Of a stretch of 12,494 nucleotides of DNA, positions 3,495 through 12,490 are shown piece after piece. The DNA comes from Candidatus Nealsonbacteria bacterium RIFCSPHIGHO2_02_FULL_43_13 (GTDB lineage Bacteria; Patescibacteriota; Minisyncoccia; Minisyncoccales; MHMH01). Position 1 is the first letter of the stretch; each line of letters starts with the position of its first letter. Made by a program: the position numbers and the translations under genes. The stretch spans positions 1 to 12,494 of the forward strand of contig MHMD01000007.1 of assembly GCA_001819295.1 (NCBI GenBank), in the 5' to 3' direction. Below the pieces are notes generated by a model, which was not told the DNA's origin, ran no database searches, and saw nothing but the letters and a program-made list of their open reading frames with translations.

Positions 3495-4214
3495 TTAAAA
3501 TTTAATTATCGCCAAGCAACCCCGGATAGCCATTTTTGATTTAGTGATGTTTAAATCTTCGCTATCGCCCCTTAAATTAAGTTCTGCATCACCACTTCGG
3601 AACAATAAATCAATTGGATTTTTTGCAATAACTTCGCGAACGAATTTCAACCCATTGCCCCGCTCTTCGGGAGATCGGCCGGAAATTATTTCGGTAAAAG
3701 CAGTCCGAAGAGCATCTTCGTGATTTATAAGCTCTGGTTTTATTCTGCTCAAGGTTTTTAAAACGCCCACGCCCCTGTCGGCAAGAACAATAATTCCCTT
3801 GTGTATATCATAACCAAAAAATATTCCGGGCGCATCGGGCCAATTTCCAAGGTTATGGTCATAAGAATTGTTGCCAATTTCGCCTGCAACCGCCACGATG
3901 ATAGAAAAAATCTTATTCGTCTTTTCGTTGTTTATAAGCAGATCCTGCATCTTAGTTAACCTTGTTTGGAAAACTGCGCTGTTTGAACAATAAAAATCCT
4001 GCGGTATTTCTCCGCCAAGAACCGCCCAACTATTCGCCATTTTCGATAAATCGCTAGAAAATATCTCCAAATCCCTTTTTGAATAATACCTGTGTGTGCC
4101 ACCCGCCTTCTTAAGGGCAACTAATTTACCGCTTTTATCCCAGCGCCTCAACGTATCGATAGAAACACCAAGAAACTCGGCTGCTTCTCTTATGGTTAAT
4201 AACTCTTCTTCCAT
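3495..4214 (-). CDS. MerR-type HTH fused to GHKL (histidine-kinase-like) ATPase domain
   Basis: The 239 aa product joins two domains. Residues 6-52 are a MerR/excisionase-type winged helix: LTIREAAEFLGVSIDTLRRW, then a wing with AGGTHRYYSKRDL, very like the N-terminal domains of MerR regulators and IS607 resolvases. Residues about 98-239 are a GHKL ATPase. The N box is EIGNNSYDHN (112-121), the G1 box DRGVGV (146-151), and the G2 box ERGNGLKFV (184-192). No phospho-accepting His domain, sensor or membrane helix is present. It would therefore be a DNA-binding anti-sigma-type or serine kinase with the downstream DUF4325 protein as likely partner. I start it at MEEELL (4214), because the 20 codons upstream lie over the promoter and repeats. 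TATAAT ends 6 bases before this ATG, implying a leaderless mRNA. The three TATGCAA repeats upstream suggest autoregulation. Confidence 0.85.
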   Translation of the reverse strand: MEEELLTIREAAEFLGVSIDTLRRWDKSGKLVALKKAGGTHRYYSKRDLEIFSSDLSKMANSWAVLGGEIPQDFYCSNSAVFQTRLTKMQDLLINNEKTNKIFSIIVAVAGEIGNNSYDHNLGNWPDAPGIFFGYDIHKGIIVLADRGVGVLKTLSRIKPELINHEDALRTAFTEIISGRSPEERGNGLKFVREVIAKNPIDLLFRSGDAELNLRGDSEDLNITKSKMAIRGCLAIIKF

Positions 4215-4220
4215 GAATTT

Positions 4221-4365: not shown

Positions 4366-4470
4366 ACTTTAACCCTAATCTCGCCTTCGCAAGCTACTTG
4401 CAGGTTTTATCTGCCGTAGCTCGCTTCAGCGAGCGAAGGCAGGGGCTCGTAGAGGATGTTAGAACAAAGA
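4366..4470. repeat. Structured repeat element, copy 1
   Basis: The + strand carries a long imperfect hairpin: GCCTTCGC (4383-4390) pairs with GCGAAGGC (4433-4440), AGCTAC with GTAGCT inside it, GCAG with CTGC at the tip, and a side hairpin GCTCGC-TTCA-GCGAGC. It is followed directly by AGGGGCTCGTAGAGGATG and TTAGAAC. The tail is related to the copies at 4971-5010 and 6337-6376. It lies just beyond the terminator of the cupin gene. There is no coding potential, and the 4275-4482 stretch holds nothing else I can identify. Confidence 0.6.
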
Positions 4471-4482
4471 TTAGAGAAAACG

Positions 4483-4515: not shown

Positions 4516-4866
4516 CTAACATAAATATTTATCAGTGGGAATGGAAGGAGCCTTTATAACAATCAAAACCGTTCCATCTTTCGCTTTTTTTGTGTGAGTT
4601 ACGGAACCGCTTTTCACTAATACAAAATCTCCAGGTTTTAATTTCAACACATCCCCCTCAATTTCTTCTTCTAGGCTACCCTTGATTACTATCGTAATTT
4701 CATCTACTTCTTTATGGAAATGTCTTTCCCAACTCATCTTGGAATCCAACTTTATCCAAACAACCTCTACTTTTTTGGTATAGAGAGGATTGTTTTCTGG
4801 TAAAAATGCTCCGCATAAAAAACCTCTCTTTCCTATCGGTTTATCAACTCGTCCCCTGGAATACAT
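4516..4866 (-). CDS. Small single-domain cupin protein
   Basis: The 116 aa product is a one-domain cupin (beta barrel). Motif 1 is HFHKEVDEITIVIKGSLE (49-66), with metal-ligand candidates His49, His51 and Glu53 or Glu56. Motif 2 is KPGDFVLVKSGSVTH (77-91), with His91 as the third His. The residues fit a metal-binding cupin, but substrates vary too much in this family for a specific function. There is no signal peptide. The start at 4866 is fixed by AAAGGAGG with a 6-base spacing from the ATG. The gene has its own promoter (4921-4949) and terminator (4483-4509) and lies alone between two copies of the GGGGCT...GTTAGAAC repeat, like a self-contained cassette. The last residue is Cys116. Confidence 0.85.
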   Translation of the reverse strand: MYSRGRVDKPIGKRGFLCGAFLPENNPLYTKKVEVVWIKLDSKMSWERHFHKEVDEITIVIKGSLEEEIEGDVLKLKPGDFVLVKSGSVTHTKKAKDGTVLIVIKAPSIPTDKYLC

Positions 4867-4970: not shown

Positions 4971-5010
4971 TTGCAGGGGCTAGTGAACGATGTTAGAACC
5001 GTGTTTCAAG
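4971..5010. repeat. Structured repeat element, copy 2 (tail only)
   Basis: The 40 bases from TTGCAGGGGCTAGTGAACGA to TTCAAG match 6337-6376 at 36 of 40 positions by eye. Unlike copies 1 and 3, no strong hairpin lies directly before it. It sits between the cupin promoter and the terminator of the 106 aa gene. Confidence 0.75.
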
Positions 5011-5114: not shown

Positions 5115-5435
5115 TCATCTGAGAGCCGAAGGGTTTATTCCGTTAAAGGAAAGGTTGTGTCCTTTGCAGAAAATACGGAGGGAATTATAGAAGTCATCCC
5201 TTTGAGACTTATCAATAGCCACCCTGATGTGCCATCTTCGTCCATGTTCGCCAAAGTCGATACCGCTACTGTCCTCTTGAGTGTATCTAAATGGAATAAA
5301 CATATCTCCGGTCTCAACCTTAAGCTCTTCCTCTATTTTTTTCTTGGTATCGCCCGGGTCTTGTTCTGGCAACATGATATCTATAGATATGGTTTCTCCA
5401 GAAATGACTATTCCAGTATAATTCTTGTCTGACAT
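5115..5435 (-). CDS. Unknown 106 aa protein
   Basis: I do not recognise the family. The product is soluble and mixed in character: an N-terminal strand (TGIVISGETISIDIML, 7-22), an acidic/basic helix (DTKKKIEEELKVE, 29-41), and a Trp-His pair in GRRWHIRVAID (65-75). It then has DDFYNSLRIFCKGHNL (80-95). It has no signal or membrane segment. The start at 5435 is supported by AAGGAGGT, although the 11-base spacing to the ATG is long. A small hairpin TTATGT-AAAA-ACATAA (5472-5457 on the minus strand) lies directly before the ribosome binding site and might affect its access. An intrinsic terminator lies upstream at 5497-5531 and another follows at 5050-5095. No clear promoter is visible between them, so it depends on read-through or a weak promoter. 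Confidence 0.75.
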   Translation of the reverse strand: MSDKNYTGIVISGETISIDIMLPEQDPGDTKKKIEEELKVETGDMFIPFRYTQEDSSGIDFGEHGRRWHIRVAIDKSQRDDFYNSLRIFCKGHNLSFNGINPSALR

Positions 5436-5534: not shown

Positions 5535-5565
5535 TCATCTTTCGTTATTCATAATTTACCTCCTT
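5535..5565 (-). other. Strong ribosome binding site with five-codon ORF (MNNER)
   Basis: Minus-strand AAGGAGGT (5565-5558) is followed six bases later by ATG AAT AAC GAA AGA TGA (5552-5535). The stop overlaps a second ATG (AGATGAAGG), whose eight-codon frame runs through the terminator stem and ends at TAG. The leader around it, AGTTCTTTAATGAAGGAGG, resembles the cupin leader. It could be a leader peptide next to an attenuator, or the scar of a gene whose body was deleted. The signals are clear but the function is inference. Confidence 0.5.
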
Positions 5566-5575
5566 CATTAAAGAA

Positions 5576-5854
5576 CTATAGATTGGTTATATAGTCTCCA
5601 CGCCAATCGTATTTGGCTGAGACTTTTGGCCACCACCACACAGGACGTAATGCATACCTCCAGGCTGCGAAACCCACCAAGACTAAGAAAAGGAGCAATG
5701 GTCCAACTAATAAAAGTACCCTGCCATACACCTTATTTCCTTCATCCCAAGTGAGTCTCTCGGCTAATGCCTGACGGCATGCTACAGCTTCGGCATAATA
5801 GCCGAGGAACAGGTTTCCCGCCACCACGCCAATGATTATTAAAATATCAACCAT
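5576..5854 (-). CDS. Small two-helix membrane protein
   Basis: The 92 aa product has two hydrophobic segments, residues about 3-25 (VDILIIIGVVAGNLFLGYY) and 45-67 (RVLLLVGPLLLFLVLVGFAA). A 19-residue polar loop separates them, and a basic, Trp-rich tail follows (RPVWWWPK, 70-77). It should be an integral membrane protein; I know of no family for it. The start at 5854 is set by AAAGGAGG, 9 bases from the ATG. A perfect consensus promoter (5881-5909) lies about 20-30 bases upstream of the ribosome binding site, so the gene should be well expressed. It is followed by a mini-ORF with its own strong ribosome binding site and a terminator. Confidence 0.75.
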   Translation of the reverse strand: MVDILIIIGVVAGNLFLGYYAEAVACRQALAERLTWDEGNKVYGRVLLLVGPLLLFLVLVGFAAWRYALRPVWWWPKVSAKYDWRGDYITNL

Positions 5855-5962: not shown

Positions 5963-6223
5963 TTAATTGCTGAGGTATTCTTTCAGCATCGTCATTAACG
6001 TTGTCCTTCCTCGATTTGTTTTGAGGTATTCCTCTCTTCTTTTGGTGTCCCTCTTATTTTTGTAAGCCTCGTAATGAATAAGTTCTAATGGAATATAATA
6101 TTTTGTAGATTTTGACTTTCCGCTATTGTGTTCCTTCAGTCGCTGGTGAAGATCTTCAGAATATCCTATATAAATAAAATCCCTAGTTTTATTATAGAGA
6201 ACGTAGACGTAATAGAATTTCAT
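5963..6223 (-). CDS. GIY-YIG nuclease-like small protein
   Basis: The 86 aa product is one GIY-YIG domain of the compact UPF0213/YhbQ-like type. It has the GIY-equivalent strand YYVYVLYN (4-11), the YIG motif IYIGYSEDL (17-25), the conserved Arg in QRLKEHN (27-33), STKYYIPLELIHYEAY (39-54) and the catalytic-Glu region KRREEYLKT (61-69). The last resembles the usual REKxLKxxxGR pattern, followed by NRGR. The catalytic Tyr, Arg and Glu candidates are all present. Such proteins are often present in several copies per genome and their natural substrate is unclear. I start it at MKFYY (6223); seven more codons upstream would run into the hairpin at 6236-6259. There is no Shine-Dalgarno. A REP-like hairpin just upstream hints at mobility. 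Confidence 0.88.
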   Translation of the reverse strand: MKFYYVYVLYNKTRDFIYIGYSEDLHQRLKEHNSGKSKSTKYYIPLELIHYEAYKNKRDTKRREEYLKTNRGRTTLMTMLKEYLSN

Positions 6224-6316: not shown

Positions 6317-6376
6317 GCAAGGCGCAGAATTGTGCCTTGCAGGGGCTAGTGAACGACGTTAGAACCAGGATTCAAG
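6317..6376. repeat. Structured repeat element, copy 3
   Basis: A perfect hairpin GCAAGGC (6317-6323) and GCCTTGC (6334-6340) runs directly into AGGGGCTAGTGAACGACG and TTAGAACC. Positions 6337-6376 match 4971-5010 at 36 of 40 bases. The layout (hairpin, then GGGGCT, then GTTAGAAC) is the same as in copy 1. It abuts the terminator of the amino-acid-kinase-like gene. Confidence 0.75.
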
Positions 6377-6412: not shown

Positions 6413-6859
6413 TTATAGATAAACTACCTCAATCTTATCAAGATCGTTAGGAAAAGATTTATTTCTTCCCCTTAACGTAACGATAAATATTTTATTGAAA
6501 CTAGGATAAAGAGCCATCGCATAACTGTCACCGTTTACGTGGCAAACCTTATCACCTAATTTGAATACCGGAATAAAAACAGTAGCCTTAATCCCCCTTT
6601 GATTTAATTGCTCTTCCGTTAAGCGTTTTTGTTCTCTCAAGATATCCTCGGCTATTATTCTTCCTTTTTCATTTTTAATTTCTCTCCCGGTTGGAAAAAA
6701 TTCATATTCAATACCCTGTTTTTGTAATGCTTTCGTAATTGAGGTGCCACCCCCACAAAGTATGAATAAACGGTCTGAGGAATTCGTGATCGTAAAAAGC
6801 CAATCATAGAAAGTCGTTTTTTCTATTACATCCCCCGAAGCCTTTATTAGAATGTCCAT
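6413..6859 (-). CDS. Truncated amino-acid-kinase-fold protein
   Basis: The 148 aa product resembles the N-terminal half of the amino acid kinase (AAK) superfamily (UMP kinase, acetylglutamate kinase, aspartokinase). The start MDILIKASGDV (1-11) fits the first strand with its Lys. LFILCGGGTSIT (31-42) fits the Gly-rich substrate or phosphate loop. HVNGDSYAMALYPSFNKIFIVT (107-128) fits the 'N-x-D-(S/T)-x-A...L-x-x-T' segment. Family members run to about 230-300 aa; here the protein stops soon after, so most of the ATP-binding C-terminal part is missing. It may be a minimal or non-catalytic AAK domain; the stop is clean and no decayed frame is apparent downstream. The start is the ATG at 6859, 6 bases after GGGAGG; a TTG one codon earlier is less likely. 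It has its own terminator. Confidence 0.7.
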   Translation of the reverse strand: MDILIKASGDVIEKTTFYDWLFTITNSSDRLFILCGGGTSITKALQKQGIEYEFFPTGREIKNEKGRIIAEDILREQKRLTEEQLNQRGIKATVFIPVFKLGDKVCHVNGDSYAMALYPSFNKIFIVTLRGRNKSFPNDLDKIEVVYL

Positions 6860-7726: not shown

Positions 7727-8377
7727 CTAATTGCCAATATCTTTACCGTGTTTCTGGCGCCATTCTTCGATCTTCTTATGGTCGCCTGAAAGCAGAACAT
7801 CGGGCACGCGCCATTTTTTAAAGACTTCGGGGCGCGTATACTGCTCGTATTCGATAAAGCCCTTATCTTTGGTGATTCTTTCTTTAAGTAATTGGGGCTT
7901 GCCTAAAACTCCGGGAATCAACCTCGCCACCGTCTCGATAACCACCATGGCTGGCAACTCCCCGCCCATCAAATCGTAATCGCCGATAGAAACCTCCTCA
8001 TCAACCAGGTGCTGGACTACTCTTTCATCCACGCCCTCATAACGTCCGCAAATGAAAATAAGATGCTTAGCCCGGGCAAATTTGTAAGCCATCTTTTGAT
8101 CGAACTTTTTTCCCCTCGGCGTAAATAAAATTACCTTGGCGTTTTTTTTCTTTAAGGCTTTGATGGACTTAAAGAGCGGTTCAATCTTGAGGACCATGCC
8201 TAATCCCCCGCCGAACGGCCGATCGTCAACTGTTTTATGCCTGTCCCGAGTCCACTTCCTAAGATTATGCACATTAATTTTAATCAGGCACTTTTTTTGA
8301 GCGCGGGCGATCAGCGACTCTTTGAGATAGGAGTCAAAAATATTCGGGAAAATAGTGATAATGTCGAATTTCAACAT
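7727..8377 (-). CDS. trmD: tRNA (guanine-N1)-methyltransferase TrmD
   Basis: TrmD transfers a methyl group from S-adenosylmethionine to G37 of tRNAs reading CNN codons, preventing +1 frameshifting. The 216 aa product has the SPOUT trefoil-knot hallmarks: MLKFDIITIFPNIF (1-14), DDRPFGGGLGMV (51-62), FICGRYEGVDERV (108-120), SIGDYDLMGGELPAM (130-144) with the catalytic Asp in GDYDL, then YTRPEV (180-185) and VPDVLLSGDH (191-200). It is shorter than the E. coli protein (about 255 aa) but ends after the expected C-terminal helix, so it looks complete. The start at 8377 is the conserved MLKFDI; upstream codons overlap a hairpin. There is no Shine-Dalgarno. It shares a block with khpA, a frequent trmD partner, and with three tRNA genes. 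Confidence 0.97.
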   Translation of the reverse strand: MLKFDIITIFPNIFDSYLKESLIARAQKKCLIKINVHNLRKWTRDRHKTVDDRPFGGGLGMVLKIEPLFKSIKALKKKNAKVILFTPRGKKFDQKMAYKFARAKHLIFICGRYEGVDERVVQHLVDEEVSIGDYDLMGGELPAMVVIETVARLIPGVLGKPQLLKERITKDKGFIEYEQYTRPEVFKKWRVPDVLLSGDHKKIEEWRQKHGKDIGN

Positions 8378-8416
8378 GGAAAAGTAAAGCCGTACTATCA
8401 TCATAATAGCACGGCT
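8378..8416 (-). terminator. Terminator-like hairpin directly before trmD
   Basis: On the minus strand AGCCGT-x-CTAT and ATAG-x-ACGGCT pair with one mismatch around a 7-base loop (8416-8388), followed by TTACTTTTCC that ends at the trmD ATG. Its 5' arm shares one base with the stop codon of the 228 aa gene. It could terminate that gene or act as a conditional barrier before trmD. Confidence 0.6.
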
Positions 8417-9102
8417 CATCGAGAATTGTGAACTTGAAGGAAGCTTAAAATCCTCTCTAAATCCGGCTTCAGAATGCCTTGGCAAACGACTCTTTGGCGT
8501 CCTAGCGGAAAAGGGTTGGTTTGATTCAGGGAAATCAGCACATTGTCGGGTTGGGCGAATTGCGCTATTCCATAAGCGACAATGTCTTGAGGAACGATTA
8601 TTTCTAGGTGATTCGGCACGGTTGATTGGTCCACTCCCAGGCCAATGGTTCGTAAGGCGCGGATAAGCGCGTTAATTTCAATCAAGTTTTGCAGATGAAG
8701 CGTTCTTTTGTCGAAAGACCTGGTAATTTGAGTGAGTTGTTTCCGCCTGTCTAGTTTAATCTTGAGGAAAAATCTAGTTTTTTCTTTATCATTCGGGATG
8801 TGCGGATTTTCGACCAAACTTATCTCTTCCGGTATAATTTCGCAGGTTTTTAGTTTCTTCATATTCTTTCTAGAAAAAACAAATCTCCAGGGCAGATTGA
8901 CAAGGTAGACGCTCGCTTCATTGTGAAGATACTTTCTGATCTCTAAAAGCGGCGTTTCTGCTTCGGGTACGGCTCCGGCGATTAAGCTCTTTAGCTTCTC
9001 TATTAATTCCGCATTGTTTAGCTGAACGCCCGTTAAAGCTTGATGTCTTTGCCTGAATCTTTTCATAGCATGAGGTATGATTTCGATGCCGTCAATTTTC
9101 AT
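8416..9102 (-). CDS. Unknown 228 aa protein between khpA and trmD
   Basis: I do not recognise the family. The 228 aa soluble product begins MKIDGIEIIPHAMKRFRQRH; the 'HAxxRFxxRH' start recalls small RelE/DUF4258-like folds, but this is weak. Residues 60-95 include EIRKYLHNEASVYLVNLPWR followed by FVFSRKNMKKL, a plausible beta-sheet continuation. The C-terminal part, LEIIVPQDIVAYGIAQFAQP (172-191), looks like an alpha/beta domain. I start at 9102 because GGGAGGAAGAG precedes that ATG; nine more codons are possible from 9129. It lies between a bidirectional terminator (9135-9174) and the hairpin before trmD, so it may be its own transcript even though it sits in a conserved block. No promoter stands out in the 30 bases before it. 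Confidence 0.7.
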   Translation of the reverse strand: MKIDGIEIIPHAMKRFRQRHQALTGVQLNNAELIEKLKSLIAGAVPEAETPLLEIRKYLHNEASVYLVNLPWRFVFSRKNMKKLKTCEIIPEEISLVENPHIPNDKEKTRFFLKIKLDRRKQLTQITRSFDKRTLHLQNLIEINALIRALRTIGLGVDQSTVPNHLEIIVPQDIVAYGIAQFAQPDNVLISLNQTNPFPLGRQRVVCQGILKPDLERILSFLQVHNSR

Positions 9103-9192: not shown

Positions 9193-9537
9193 TTAGAGTT
9201 TTAATTCATCAAGTCCCGATCCTTCGGGCCTTCTTTCATATCCTGATTCCTCGGGTCTTCTGACGCGAGGTCCTCGGCCACCCTCTGGCTCTTCGATTTT
9301 TAAGTTCACTCTCGCGTGGTTCTTAAGACCGATAATGCGAACCAAAGTTCTGATGGCTCTCGCAGTTGAACCTTCGCGGCCCACGATTTGGCCCATGTCT
9401 TCGGCGTGGACGTTCAATGAGAGTAAAACTCCCATCTCATCAACCTTGCGGTCGACTTTAACGCTTTCCGGATGGTCAACCAACGATTTTACAACGTAAT
9501 CCAGGAATTGCTCGTCAACAGTTTTTTTGTCTGCCAT
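9193..9537 (-). CDS. khpA: KH-domain RNA-binding protein KhpA (YlqC-like)
   Basis: The 114 aa product carries a single KH domain of the KhpA/YlqC family, a small RNA chaperone that pairs with KhpB in many bacteria. Residues 6-80 are the domain; the RNA-binding GxxG loop is GREG (53-56) in GQIVGREGSTARAIRTLVR, and the following strands include HARVNLKIEEP. Family members are often about 75-90 aa; this one adds a roughly 30-residue charged, Gly/Arg/Glu-rich tail (GGRGPRVRR and similar), probably disordered and possibly RNA-contacting. It has a perfect promoter at 9621-9649. The leader of about 75 nt has AGTAGC/GCTACT that can pair, and no Shine-Dalgarno. In many genomes khpA lies between rpsP and rimM-trmD; here trmD is two genes on. 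Confidence 0.93.
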   Translation of the reverse strand: MADKKTVDEQFLDYVVKSLVDHPESVKVDRKVDEMGVLLSLNVHAEDMGQIVGREGSTARAIRTLVRIIGLKNHARVNLKIEEPEGGRGPRVRRPEESGYERRPEGSGLDELKL

Positions 9538-10431: not shown

Positions 10432-10671
10432 CTACTTACTGAAAGAGATTTTTTGGAGTTTTTCTTCGGTTTCCCGTAAGATTTCTGCCATGAACTCTTT
10501 TGCAAATTCGAGAAGTTCCTCTTTAGGAATACCTGTTTCCTGAGCAAGTTGTCCGATCTCTTTCTTGACGTTGTTCGCGTCGGCGAGACCTCTTATTTGG
10601 AAATCACGGATTTTTTCCCGCTTCAGGACAGCGTAGGCAATCTCGGCCTTTCGTTCCTTTGATATAGCCAT
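10432..10671 (-). CDS. Small charged helical unknown protein (79 aa)
   Basis: I do not recognise the family. The 79 aa product begins MAISKERKAEIAYAVLKREK. It is rich in Lys, Glu and Ala, is probably a three-helix protein, and has ETGIPKEELLEFAKEF (48-63) as a possible helix-turn-helix-like stretch, though not a convincing one. It has no membrane or signal segment. The ATG at 10671 is chosen over the GTG at 10680 because AAGGAGG stands 8 bases before it and the GTG overlaps that site. A perfect promoter with a palindrome across the -10 region lies 60-90 bases upstream. The leader can form AGAAGA/TCTTCT plus AGGAA/TTCCT just before the ribosome binding site. Promoter, ribosome binding site and hairpins together suggest a strongly expressed, controlled gene. 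Confidence 0.75.
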   Translation of the reverse strand: MAISKERKAEIAYAVLKREKIRDFQIRGLADANNVKKEIGQLAQETGIPKEELLEFAKEFMAEILRETEEKLQKISFSK

Positions 10672-10773: not shown

Positions 10774-10798
10774 CCAAAAACCGCCTTTGGGGCGGTTT
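10774..10798 (-). terminator. Intrinsic terminator of the 16S rRNA transcript
   Basis: AAACCGCC-CCAAA-GGCGGTTT on the minus strand followed by TTGG, an 8-bp GC-rich stem running into a short T tract. It ends the rRNA transcription unit about 185 bases beyond the 16S 3' end and lies directly before the next promoter. Confidence 0.85.
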
Positions 10799-10982
10799 CC
10801 TGCAAATTAACTAACACGTAGTTCCTTAGAGTTGCCTCGTAAGATCGATATTTAAAGGCCATTGATCAAGGCCTCAGAATTAAGGAGAGAATTCTCACTC
10901 CTCAATTCGGTCAACGCTGTTTTTTCTCAAATAGCGAGCAATATGCCCGAAGGCATATTAATCAATATAGAAGAGAAAAAAA
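10799..10982 (-). other. 16S rRNA 3' trailer with three hairpins, no 23S gene
   Basis: After the mature end the minus strand has TATTTTTTTCTC. Then comes an 8-bp hairpin AATATGCC-TTCG-GGCATATT (10959-10940) with an ultra-stable UUCG loop, followed by GAATTGAGGAG/CTCCTTAATTC (10908-10877, 11 bp, one G-U pair) and AGGCC/GGCCT around TTGATCAAT (10874-10856). No tRNA, 5S or 23S sequence is recognisable. These are probably rRNA processing or stability elements. Confidence 0.55.
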
Positions 10983-11026
10983 TAATGTAGTGATCCATGC
11001 ACAGCTTCCGCTACGCATGCCTTGTT

Positions 11027-11283
11027 CATGTTGTTCTCTATATCGCTATAAAGCATGGACTATATCTTCACCCAACAATTTGTTGGGGCTCGGCGTGTAG
11101 TCTCTGAGGGGTCATCCGCCATTTGGCGGAGACTTCCCTGCTGATTGTCTGCACCGAAAGCATTTTTACTCATATTAATCTATTTTAACACGAGTAGCTT
11201 CCGGATACACAGGTTTTCCAGCATATAGCCAAGTTTTTTAATAAGGATTGCTCCTCAAAAGTCGCAACGTGCAGTTTGCACCA
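11027..11283 (-). mobile_element. ORF-less group I intron in 16S rRNA (about position 1498)
   Basis: This 257 nt insertion between GAAGTCGT and AACAAGG has clear group I features. In P1 the exon AAGTCGT pairs with the internal guide GCGACTT, with the required U-G at the splice site. The intron ends in G. The conserved core shows AATCAGCAGGGAAG (P/Q region), a P5-type hairpin TCCGCC-AAAT-GGCGGA, P7 as GACTA (in GAGACTACACGCC) with TAGTC (in AAGATATAGTCC), and P8 as CCCAACA-AAT-TGTTGGG. There is no reading frame inside, so mobility would need a nuclease supplied in trans. Insertion falls in the helix 44-45 linker of the decoding region. Confidence 0.92.
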
Positions 11284-11698
11284 ACGACTTCATTCTTGTT
11301 ACCGATCTTAGCTTAGGTCCACAATAAAGTGAAACGTCGGCTACTACCGGCTTCCCTAATGTGACGGGCGGTGAGTACAAGATTCAGGAACGTATTCATC
11401 GCGCCATAGCTGATACGCGATTACTAGCGATTCCAGCTTCATGAGGGCGAGTTGCAGCCCTCAATCTGAACTGAGAGGCCGTTTGTGCGATTAGCTCCGG
11501 ATTACTCCTTCGCAACGCGCTGTCGGCCCCATTGTATCATGTGTGCGGCCCAGGGCATCAAAGGGCCGTGCTGATTTGGCGTCATCCCCACCTTCCTCCT
11601 GGTTGTCCCAGGCAGTTCTCTGTGACATATAAAACACAGAGTAGGGGTTGCGCATGTTAATCCATTTAAGGGTGCGTCTCAAGATACATGCTGACGAC

Positions 11699-12490
11699 CA
11701 TATTCTTCCATAATTACTTATGGTATGGACTATACCATTTCCCGATAAAGCGGGAACCAGCGTGTAATGGCAATATTATTACCATTAAGTTCTCCTAGTC
11801 CTGGTGGAAAACTAAGTCTCTACGGGGTACGAATACTAATTTTTGCAATTTCAACGAATATGCCAAGATGTTGTCTAAAAATTTCTTCGATTCAAAACGA
11901 GAAATATATAGACAAAAAATTCTTGCACTTTTGTAATAGTAAACTTTTGTGTTGCTAATGCCGATTCTGCTAAGAAGTTTCTTGTCGATTTCTGCTTCAA
12001 TTCTTCTGGCGTAAACAATCCGACAGTCGTTTCGTAAGTTCTTGTCGATCGATCCATCACCGTCAAAGCGTCCGGCAAGATACGCTCGGATAACTTTAAT
12101 TCTTTTCAATTTGTTTAAACTGTTTTTAGCTAAAACAAATTCTCTCAATAATGGCCGGCTGTTTACGAACAGATGATGTCTGTTGAATTTTATTCTATCT
12201 TTCGAAAAATGTTTTTCCAGGAATTTTCTGAAAACGTCGATTAGGTCGGAATTTGTATTGCTAAGTCCGATCGAACTTGCCCACCAATAACTATCGGCAC
12301 ACCAAAGACCAAGAATGTAAGCGTCTTTCTCTTTCGAAAAGAAATTACAAAAATTAGTATTCGTACTTCCCACGGTATTGCCCATTCCTTAATTATATCA
12401 TTAAAGAATTAGGGTTTCACCGTTATGAGCTGGTTTTTACACTAAAGATTGCTCTCTAGTGGGTCGTTTACCTTATATTTTTAAGGTATC
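11699..12490 (-). mobile_element. Group I intron in 16S rRNA (about position 1060) with endonuclease gene
   Basis: The 792 nt intron lies between GGTT and GTCGTCAGC. P1 is formed by exon GGTT with GACC (U-G at the splice site), with an ACCTTA/TAAGGT hairpin in the loop. The intron ends in G (11699). Core elements include GGGCAATACCGTGGGAA (P/Q-like), P7 as GGACTA (11801-11796) with TAGTCC (11732-11727), and hairpins TTCCCG/CGGGAA and ATGGTAAT/ATTGCCAT between them. The LAGLIDADG gene occupies most of the rest, looped out by a 26-bp stem (11827-11852 with 12341-12366). Confidence 0.92.
11795..12385 (-). CDS. Intron-encoded LAGLIDADG homing endonuclease
   Basis: The 196 aa product is a double-motif LAGLIDADG endonuclease. 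Motif 1 is YILGLWCADS (23-32) and motif 2 YLAGRFDGDGS (102-112), each with the acidic catalytic residue at its end (Asp31; Asp108 or Asp110). It would cut intron-less 16S genes near position 1060 and so spread the intron; some family members also help splicing as maturases. At 196 aa it is at the short end for a two-motif enzyme but has no break. The frame overlaps the ribozyme at both ends: the first codons cover the GGGCAATACCGTGGG core and the 26-bp stem, and the TAG stop lies inside P7. The ATG at 12385 is preceded by TTAAGGA with no spacing, so translation from the precursor is probably weak. Confidence 0.92.
   Translation of the reverse strand: MGNTVGSTNTNFCNFFSKEKDAYILGLWCADSYWWASSIGLSNTNSDLIDVFRKFLEKHFSKDRIKFNRHHLFVNSRPLLREFVLAKNSLNKLKRIKVIRAYLAGRFDGDGSIDKNLRNDCRIVYARRIEAEIDKKLLSRIGISNTKVYYYKSARIFCLYISRFESKKFLDNILAYSLKLQKLVFVPRRDLVFHQD

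Follow-up and report, generated by a model that had tools for sequence, protein, structure and literature searches.

The 16S rRNA gene in the window (the whole stretch of DNA analysed here, 12,494 nucleotides) ends without the anti-Shine-Dalgarno (anti-SD) sequence CCTCC, and the same holds for nearly all genomes of its order in which the 3′ end is recognisable. The reading that we favour, and consider probable, is that the anti-SD has decayed nearly throughout this order, leaving a tail without pairing beyond chance, that typical genes are of a leaderless or short-leader type, and that a minority of genes led by Shine-Dalgarno (SD) motifs was mostly imported. Genomes are given by number: G000 is the window's own, G001 and G004 belong to the same family and G026 to the same order.

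The 16S rRNA 3′ end

The last 16S exon (10983..11026, minus strand) consists of AACAAGG, helix 45, GGATCAC and a tail. Read from 11026 down to about 10975, the minus strand gives ...AACAAGGCATGCGTAGCGGAAGCTGTGCATGGATCAC|TACATTATTTTTTTC, with the exon terminating in GGATCAC-TACATTATTTTTTTC; CCTCC is absent from this gene end (GGATCAC-TACATTATTT), and a degenerate tail, TACATTA, stands in place of the expected CTCCTTT. The Rfam bacterial SSU model (RF00177) aligned through its final column over 11040-10983, with a score (26 bits, E 6.9e-6) that lies below the family gathering score of 50 for a query consisting of the short last exon alone, and relatives have homologous tails. The first-pass annotation had described a 16S 3′ end lacking CCTCC, and the sequence, the alignment to the model end and the homologous tails all bear this out. 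It had also explained the tail by one deletion and two substitutions, which the alignment does not support: CACCTCCTTTA aligns with CACTACATTAT without a gap and differs by substitutions only, three of them within CCUCC (at what we take to be E. coli positions 1536, 1537 and 1539) and one, T to A, behind it. Tails in between the two states are found in relatives, namely CACCTCATTT in G303 and G335 and CACTACATTT in G002 and G026.

Distribution of CCTCC in the order, class and phylum

Among the 30 loci of relatives examined first, the 3′ end was matched in 26, and none of the 26 carried CCTCC, so the tail is more than a chance variant. In an order-wide draw the helix 45 pattern was matched by 86 of 147 genomes (the window's own included), and CCTCC is missing from 85 of these 86. 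The order's lone CCTCC (G307:C43) stands behind a helix 45 that we read as foreign in appearance. Intermediate forms are present in G345 (TCTCC) and in G289, G303 and G335 (CCTCA), and the remaining 81 genomes have none of these motifs. A class-wide draw (152 of 237 genomes matched) gave NCTCC in 67 genomes (69 rows, 19 of them not CCTCC) and CCTCC in 48; since G164 carries CCTCC only in a foreign-looking second copy, we count the motif as retained in 47 of the 152. In a phylum-wide draw 117 of 192 genomes matched, and outside the class CCTCC is present in 107 of 109 genomes, the exceptions being G410 and G374. The Fisher statistic on the breadth of the loss (1.5e-32) ignores relatedness, and the counts leave out genomes without a pattern match, often presumably cut by introns or contig ends.

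Named records with a tail of this kind (35 stretches) include Ca. Paceibacterota, Nealsonbacteria, Wildermuthbacteria and Harrisonbacteria. A degenerate anti-SD had been offered earlier as one option for this organism; the draws on relatives, order, class and phylum support it for a whole lineage rather than for one strain. Second or odd 16S 3′ ends occur within single bins (G164, G121, G307, G451, G530 and G517, the last with one 16S copy that has CCTCC and one that does not), some with a foreign-looking helix 45, and are probably contamination or mixed bins. The family of G303 and G335 (f46), two of the genomes with CCTCA, is among the more SD-enriched families.

SD motifs and their pairing with the tail

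Genes were called with a home-made, SD-blind finder, which in a check on E. coli recovered the stop in 34 of 37 genes and the exact start in 24 of the 37. In the family, a 6-mer SD precedes 9/120 sampled genes in G000, 61/417 in G004 and 7/175 in G001, and in G026 it precedes 1/248. Classmates that keep CCTCC have few such genes (2/63 in G158, 0/36 in G270), as do G139 with TCTCC (2/52) and G111 with no such motif (1/33). In the controls, such a motif precedes 4/35 genes in a 50-kb stretch of E. coli K-12 and 5/50 in G409, outside the class; G004 thus reaches the long-SD frequency of E. coli without CCTCC. In G004, 62 of 112 GGAGG occurrences within 80 nt sit 4-9 nt from the start. At the genome scale, AAGGAGG-N4-9-ATG is enriched 4- to 9-fold over a reversed-pattern control (pseudocount 1) in 9/9 family genomes; for the remaining 138 genomes of the order the median is 1.9. 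Enrichment of at least 3-fold is seen in 41/147 genomes and is highest in G261 and G321, which belong to other families.

These sites are not explained by the genome's own tail, whose pairing with gene leaders does not exceed chance. With a cut-off of -6 kcal/mol it binds 1/120 leaders in G000 (shuffled leaders 6.1%) and 4/417 in G004 (3.6%); at -4.5 kcal/mol it binds 12/120 (16.5%) and 38/417 (12.9%), respectively. SD-led genes are no exception, with mean energies of -2.8 (G000) and -2.0 kcal/mol (G004) for the own tail versus -11.8 and -12.7 kcal/mol for a canonical tail.

Genes in the window

The first-pass annotation had counted at least six window genes with AGGAGG or GGGAGG, and this count stands: AGGAGG precedes the starts at 10671, 5854, 5435 and 4866 (and a 5-codon ORF at 5552), and GGGAGG precedes those at 9102 and 6859. 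The six ORFs other than the 5-codon one are on the minus strand. The first, beside the 16S gene, is an orphan ORF of 79 aa (10432..10671, GAAGGAGGTGAGAAAG-ATG), the second (5576..5854) has a TTGACA/TATAAT promoter ending 26 nt upstream, the third (5115..5435, AAGGAGGTAGCACATTAA-ATG) has no Pfam match, and the fourth (4516..4866, AAAGGAGGTTCTAA-ATG) encodes a cupin domain (PF07883, 1.1e-7), with a match in 3 of 59 other genomes searched and one weak match in a plasmid search. The two ORFs preceded by GGGAGG (8416..9102 and 6413..6859) have no Pfam match. Genes of core type on the same strand have no SD: a KhpA/KhpB-type KH protein gene (9193..9537; PF13083, 4.9e-20) and a trmD-like gene (7727..8377; PF01746, 1.3e-56). 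The same is true of a MerR-type gene (3495..4214; PF00376, 7.5e-11 with 3495-4217 as query), where by our reading a TATAAT ends 6 nt before the ATG, so that the window holds both predicted start types, leaderless in the MerR-type gene and leadered with an SD in the ORF at 5576-5854.

The 79-aa orphan matched in 3 of 59 other genomes searched, and a protein search returned three matches, one of them the query itself. The two distant homologs with a readable start (in G052 and G024) are 36-39% identical and come from other families, in genomes that have no CCTCC. A GAGGTGA-like motif precedes both, and the SD-like motif thus spans three families. A phage origin of the orphan was considered, and no match was found. 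An ORF with a GIY-YIG domain (PF01541) lies at 5963-6223 (minus strand). A 40-nt repeat occurs three times in the window (6337-6376, 4971-5010 and 4437-4476), each time following an ORF that carries an SD-like motif, in a cassette-like arrangement; three further copies are on contig C6 (in tandem at 741 nt) and one is in G004, with none in stretches of six other genomes. The repeats do not meet, by eye, the consensus of integron attC sites.

Promoter positions of the two gene classes

A −10 box directly before the start codon would let the mRNA begin at or near that codon. A plain count of TANAAT cannot serve as proof of this arrangement, as the scrambled TAANAT is about equally enriched near starts, and the leaderless claim therefore rests on a two-box test with permuted hexamers as control. 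In genes without an SD, a −10 box ends 5-9 nt before the start in 12/111 genes of G000 (3.1 expected), 19/168 of G001 (3.6), 31/356 of G004 (7.7), 19/247 of G026 (7.7), 7/61 of G158 (0.6) and, weakly, 2/50 of G139, the genome with TCTCC (0.8). The box thus exceeds composition in five of six genomes. Only about 8-11% of genes fall in the 5-9 nt bin, so that the excess is carried by a minority; for most genes no promoter can be recognised at this position. We infer from this that transcripts of typical genes would start at or near the start codon. Leaderless initiation is known from archaea and actinobacteria, which retain CCUCC; there, too, the promoter is placed for a transcript start at the AUG, a start that is here predicted from promoters.

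SD-led genes of G004 behave differently: the −10 box lies at 0-14 nt in 1/61 and at 30-49 nt in 20/61 (4.4 expected), and both bins separate them from the genes without an SD (Fisher, 0.0017 and 1.8e-6, respectively). G000 has nine SD-led genes, too few for this contrast.

Homologs of SD-led genes and the possibility of another SD reader

SD-led genes are seldom shared with relatives. In the sampled stretches of G026, homologs were found for 2/61 SD-led genes of G004 versus 112/328 other genes (p 6e-8), and for 0/9 SD-led genes of G000 versus 44/108 (p 0.013). Stretches from the same genus as G004 gave the same picture for SD-led versus non-SD genes: 0/61 versus 58/356 in G006, 2/61 versus 41/356 in G007 and 2/61 versus 39/356 in G008. 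By their first residues many SD-led genes resemble, in our reading, enzymes of central metabolism that are usually missing from such small genomes. They are scattered over contigs, the 16S contig included, which makes simple misbinning unlikely, although three neighbouring stretches account for 21 of the 61. The SD-led genes of G004 are probably imports, and the homolog counts of the window's own genome suggest the same.

It is unlikely, in our judgement, that the SD is instead read by an alternative anti-SD in another RNA, or by a protein that binds G-rich leaders, with the motif under selection. Such a reader would account for the enrichment in all nine family genomes, for the spacing of GGAGG in G004 and for the motifs retained before the 79-aa orphan in three families. 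Two single genes can be added: in a start-aligned pair from G004 and G007, with 31% identity, both members carry GAGGAGG, which may fall within an overlapping gene, and AAGGAGGTGA is found at long spacing in a G001 gene that we take for gatB, with none in the G000 ortholog. Within 16S, an internal CCTCC occurs in 4 of 23 order loci, and there is none in the three loci from the family (f1) or in the window's part of the gene, which speaks against a displaced anti-SD there; in the C26 stretch, which holds the 5′ part, a single CCTCC lies past the final 16S match. The window's own genome contains CACCTCCTT 19 times, a sequence that SDs on the opposite strand would equally produce. Also against another reader, among start-aligned reciprocal best pairs an SD is present in both partners in 0/30 (G004-G000), 0/40 (G004-G001) and 1/38 (G000-G001). 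Long-term selection on the SD would have little to act on, since few SD-led genes are shared, too few for SD conservation between same-genus orthologs to be judged.

A related idea is that the family still reads the SD by a second mechanism outside 16S that works in parallel with leaderless initiation, a single pool of ribosomes then serving two initiation codes; we give this a slim chance. The enrichment in nine of nine genomes and the SD of the orphan across three families may reflect residual SD function in the family, and an even 4- to 9-fold enrichment throughout the family would not be needed if SD motifs were pure passengers.

Structure of the 16S gene, its intron and its trailer

The exon upstream of the last one (11284..11819, minus strand; RF00177 at 11374-11819 and 11282-11368) covers the 3′ domain to helix 44 and ends at 11284, which presumably corresponds to U1498 in E. 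coli numbering. Between the two exons lies a group I intron of 257 nt (11027..11283, minus strand; RF00028, 72.2 bits over 11295-11036), with the boundaries GAAGTCGT|TGG...CATG|AACAAGG (11284 | 11283-11027 | 11026), and thus, on our assumed numbering, between U1498 and A1499. Its score exceeds the gathering score of 50 bits, and a U.G wobble at the 5′ splice site and a G as the last intron base can be read from the sequence. The intron sits in the 16S decoding centre, and in G004 this site is occupied by a longer insertion whose 3′ end is similar. An ORF with a LAGLIDADG domain (PF14528; 11795-12385, minus strand) lies within another 16S insertion, and the break between the two contigs that share the gene falls near this ORF.

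Downstream of the exon, the trailer contains a conserved element (10830..10915, minus strand), a long hairpin followed by an H-type pseudoknot, aligned from 25 sequences (A1). The 25 complete elements were chosen from 42 recognised by regular expression among 100 trailers, and 20 of 23 pairs change on both sides, in a structure drawn by eye from the same 25 sequences. Paired cells amount to 91.4%, versus 68.7% in shuffles and at most 59.2% when the structure is slid. The apical part of the hairpin is palindromic, and the element is found in trailers of many members of the order. With E values up to 1 allowed, the element has no Rfam match of its own. Of three matches in this stretch, one is to the 16S end, and the other two (E 0.22 and 0.38) are to an sRNA family that is unrelated and lie around a hairpin resembling an intrinsic terminator, which follows the trailer (10775..10797, minus strand; by eye, accgccccaaaggcggtttttgg).

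The segment at 10807..10843 (minus strand) is likely the 3′ strand of a pre-16S processing stem, as a block upstream of the 16S start on contig C26 is complementary to it (CTTACGAGGCAACTCTAAGGAAC...). Leaders and trailers of relatives are likewise complementary, with matching changes in some. The G000 leader pairs with the trailer at -61.1 kcal/mol, compared with a mean of -40.8 and a best value of -62.6 kcal/mol for 100 shuffled leaders. Combined with the window's trailer, the G004 leader reaches -67.9 kcal/mol, a stronger pairing than that of the own leader. These values lend some support to a conserved processing stem and do not prove that C26 and the window's contig hold one gene, since the best shuffle and a relative's leader do as well.

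These features bear on whether CCTCC might reach the mature RNA from elsewhere. The first-pass annotation had allowed for a further exon, and more generally a spliced or trans-added 3′ end could supply the motif; introns are present in these 16S genes, and the trailer does contain CTCCTTA (10887-10881, by reading). We nevertheless hold this to be highly improbable, because that CTCCTTA forms the 3′ arm of the hairpin conserved in the trailer and is not found in other trailers (G002 being an example), the sole group I intron match at this end lies upstream of helix 45, between GAAGTCGT and AACAAGG, and in relatives the 16S tail continues into the conserved trailer.

The idea of a second or decaying copy, with a normal 16S unseen, fares no better. 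The assembly is in 32 contigs and 92% complete, and its 16S is cut across two of them, which leaves some room for an unseen copy. A Rfam search found a single 16S in non-overlapping pieces, the 5′ part on C26 and the 3′ part in the window (on C7, a contig of 12,612 bases). The intron boundaries are exact, and many independent genomes have tails related to this one, the loss being common to 85 of 86 genomes of the order, G004 with its 16S in a 271 kb contig among them; a hidden normal copy is thus scarcely credible. An assembly or sequencing error, for which we found no point in favour, has practically no weight, since the tail variant is shared among related genomes, with the type CACTACATT in several independent genomes, including named Nealsonbacteria and Wildermuthbacteria records.

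Discussion

Loss of the anti-SD in this lineage is of a known kind, here nearly order-wide and accompanied by an SD-led minority. In the accessible part of PMC10783764, SD-scarce organisms without CCUCC are defined as a category (iv), with Wolfebacteria, Campbellbacteria, Absconditabacteria and Peribacter among those named. The likeness extends to a tail without a conserved CCUCC, a variant common to related genomes, few leaders that pair with it and, in part, the same radiation. That category is limited to at most 5.5% of mRNAs binding their own tail, and our genomes fall under this limit at -6 and over it at -4.5 kcal/mol, cut-offs that are our own and differ from those of that paper. Its table lists a few single genomes of the radiation, whereas the loss described here takes in almost an entire order and a large part of a class; to what that part of the paper covers we add the in-between tails, a promoter test that points toward leaderless starts, and an SD-led accessory class in the same genomes. 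Its SD-abundant category without CCUCC (iii) likewise combines the lack of an exact CCUCC with SD-like sites. The altered tails there (CCUCA, CCUCU and ACUCC) still pair, while the window-type tail does not do so beyond chance, the values for G000 and G004 lying below those of shuffled leaders; the CCTCA tails of G289, G303 and G335 come nearest to this category. Flavobacterium and other Bacteroidota, as far as described in the accessible part of PMC6847099, also have genes without an SD, but keep the anti-SD that is lost here. The titles and abstract openings examined contained no report of order-wide anti-SD loss in this class.

Protein searches touch on the same subject. For bS21, G000 gave no match, and 3 of 20 genomes have one above the cut-off. 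Era, which binds GAUCACCUCC and which most CPR bacteria do not have (PMC10582724, accessible part), gave no match over the curated cut-off in 20 of 20 genomes; weaker matches in 18 are, in our reading, other GTPases. YchF, tied to leaderless translation, is broadly retained in CPR bacteria, according to the accessible part of PMC12641178, which also describes CPR 16S 3′ ends as often incompletely annotated and introns as frequent.

In the reading that we favour, the organism belongs to an order of Paceibacteria-type Patescibacteria in which, as comparison shows, the 16S anti-SD decayed by substitutions. The class seems to have been sparing in its use of the SD before the loss, to judge from two sampled classmates that keep CCTCC and have few SD-led genes, and CCTCC may have been free to drift because there was little SD pairing to protect. 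Typical genes would be initiated on leaderless or short-leader transcripts by way of the start codon, initiator tRNA and IF2, or by 70S entry. The SD-led minority appears to be a separate class, with leaders, promoters about 30-49 nt upstream and mostly no homologs in the sampled relatives; this class was delineated in G004, and the window's own genome agrees as regards homologs. Its members are probably recent imports that still carry the SD of their donors. The first-pass annotation had not considered that SD-led genes might form a class of their own, imported for the most part.

Bacteria are generally taken to have an anti-SD almost without exception, and its loss from nearly a whole order departs from that. 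With graded tails, in a class where many genes look leaderless, the way in which a lineage gives up SD-dependent initiation can be tested by comparison. In this class, gene finding or expression prediction that relies on the SD would go astray, and in such genomes an SD could mark a recently imported gene.
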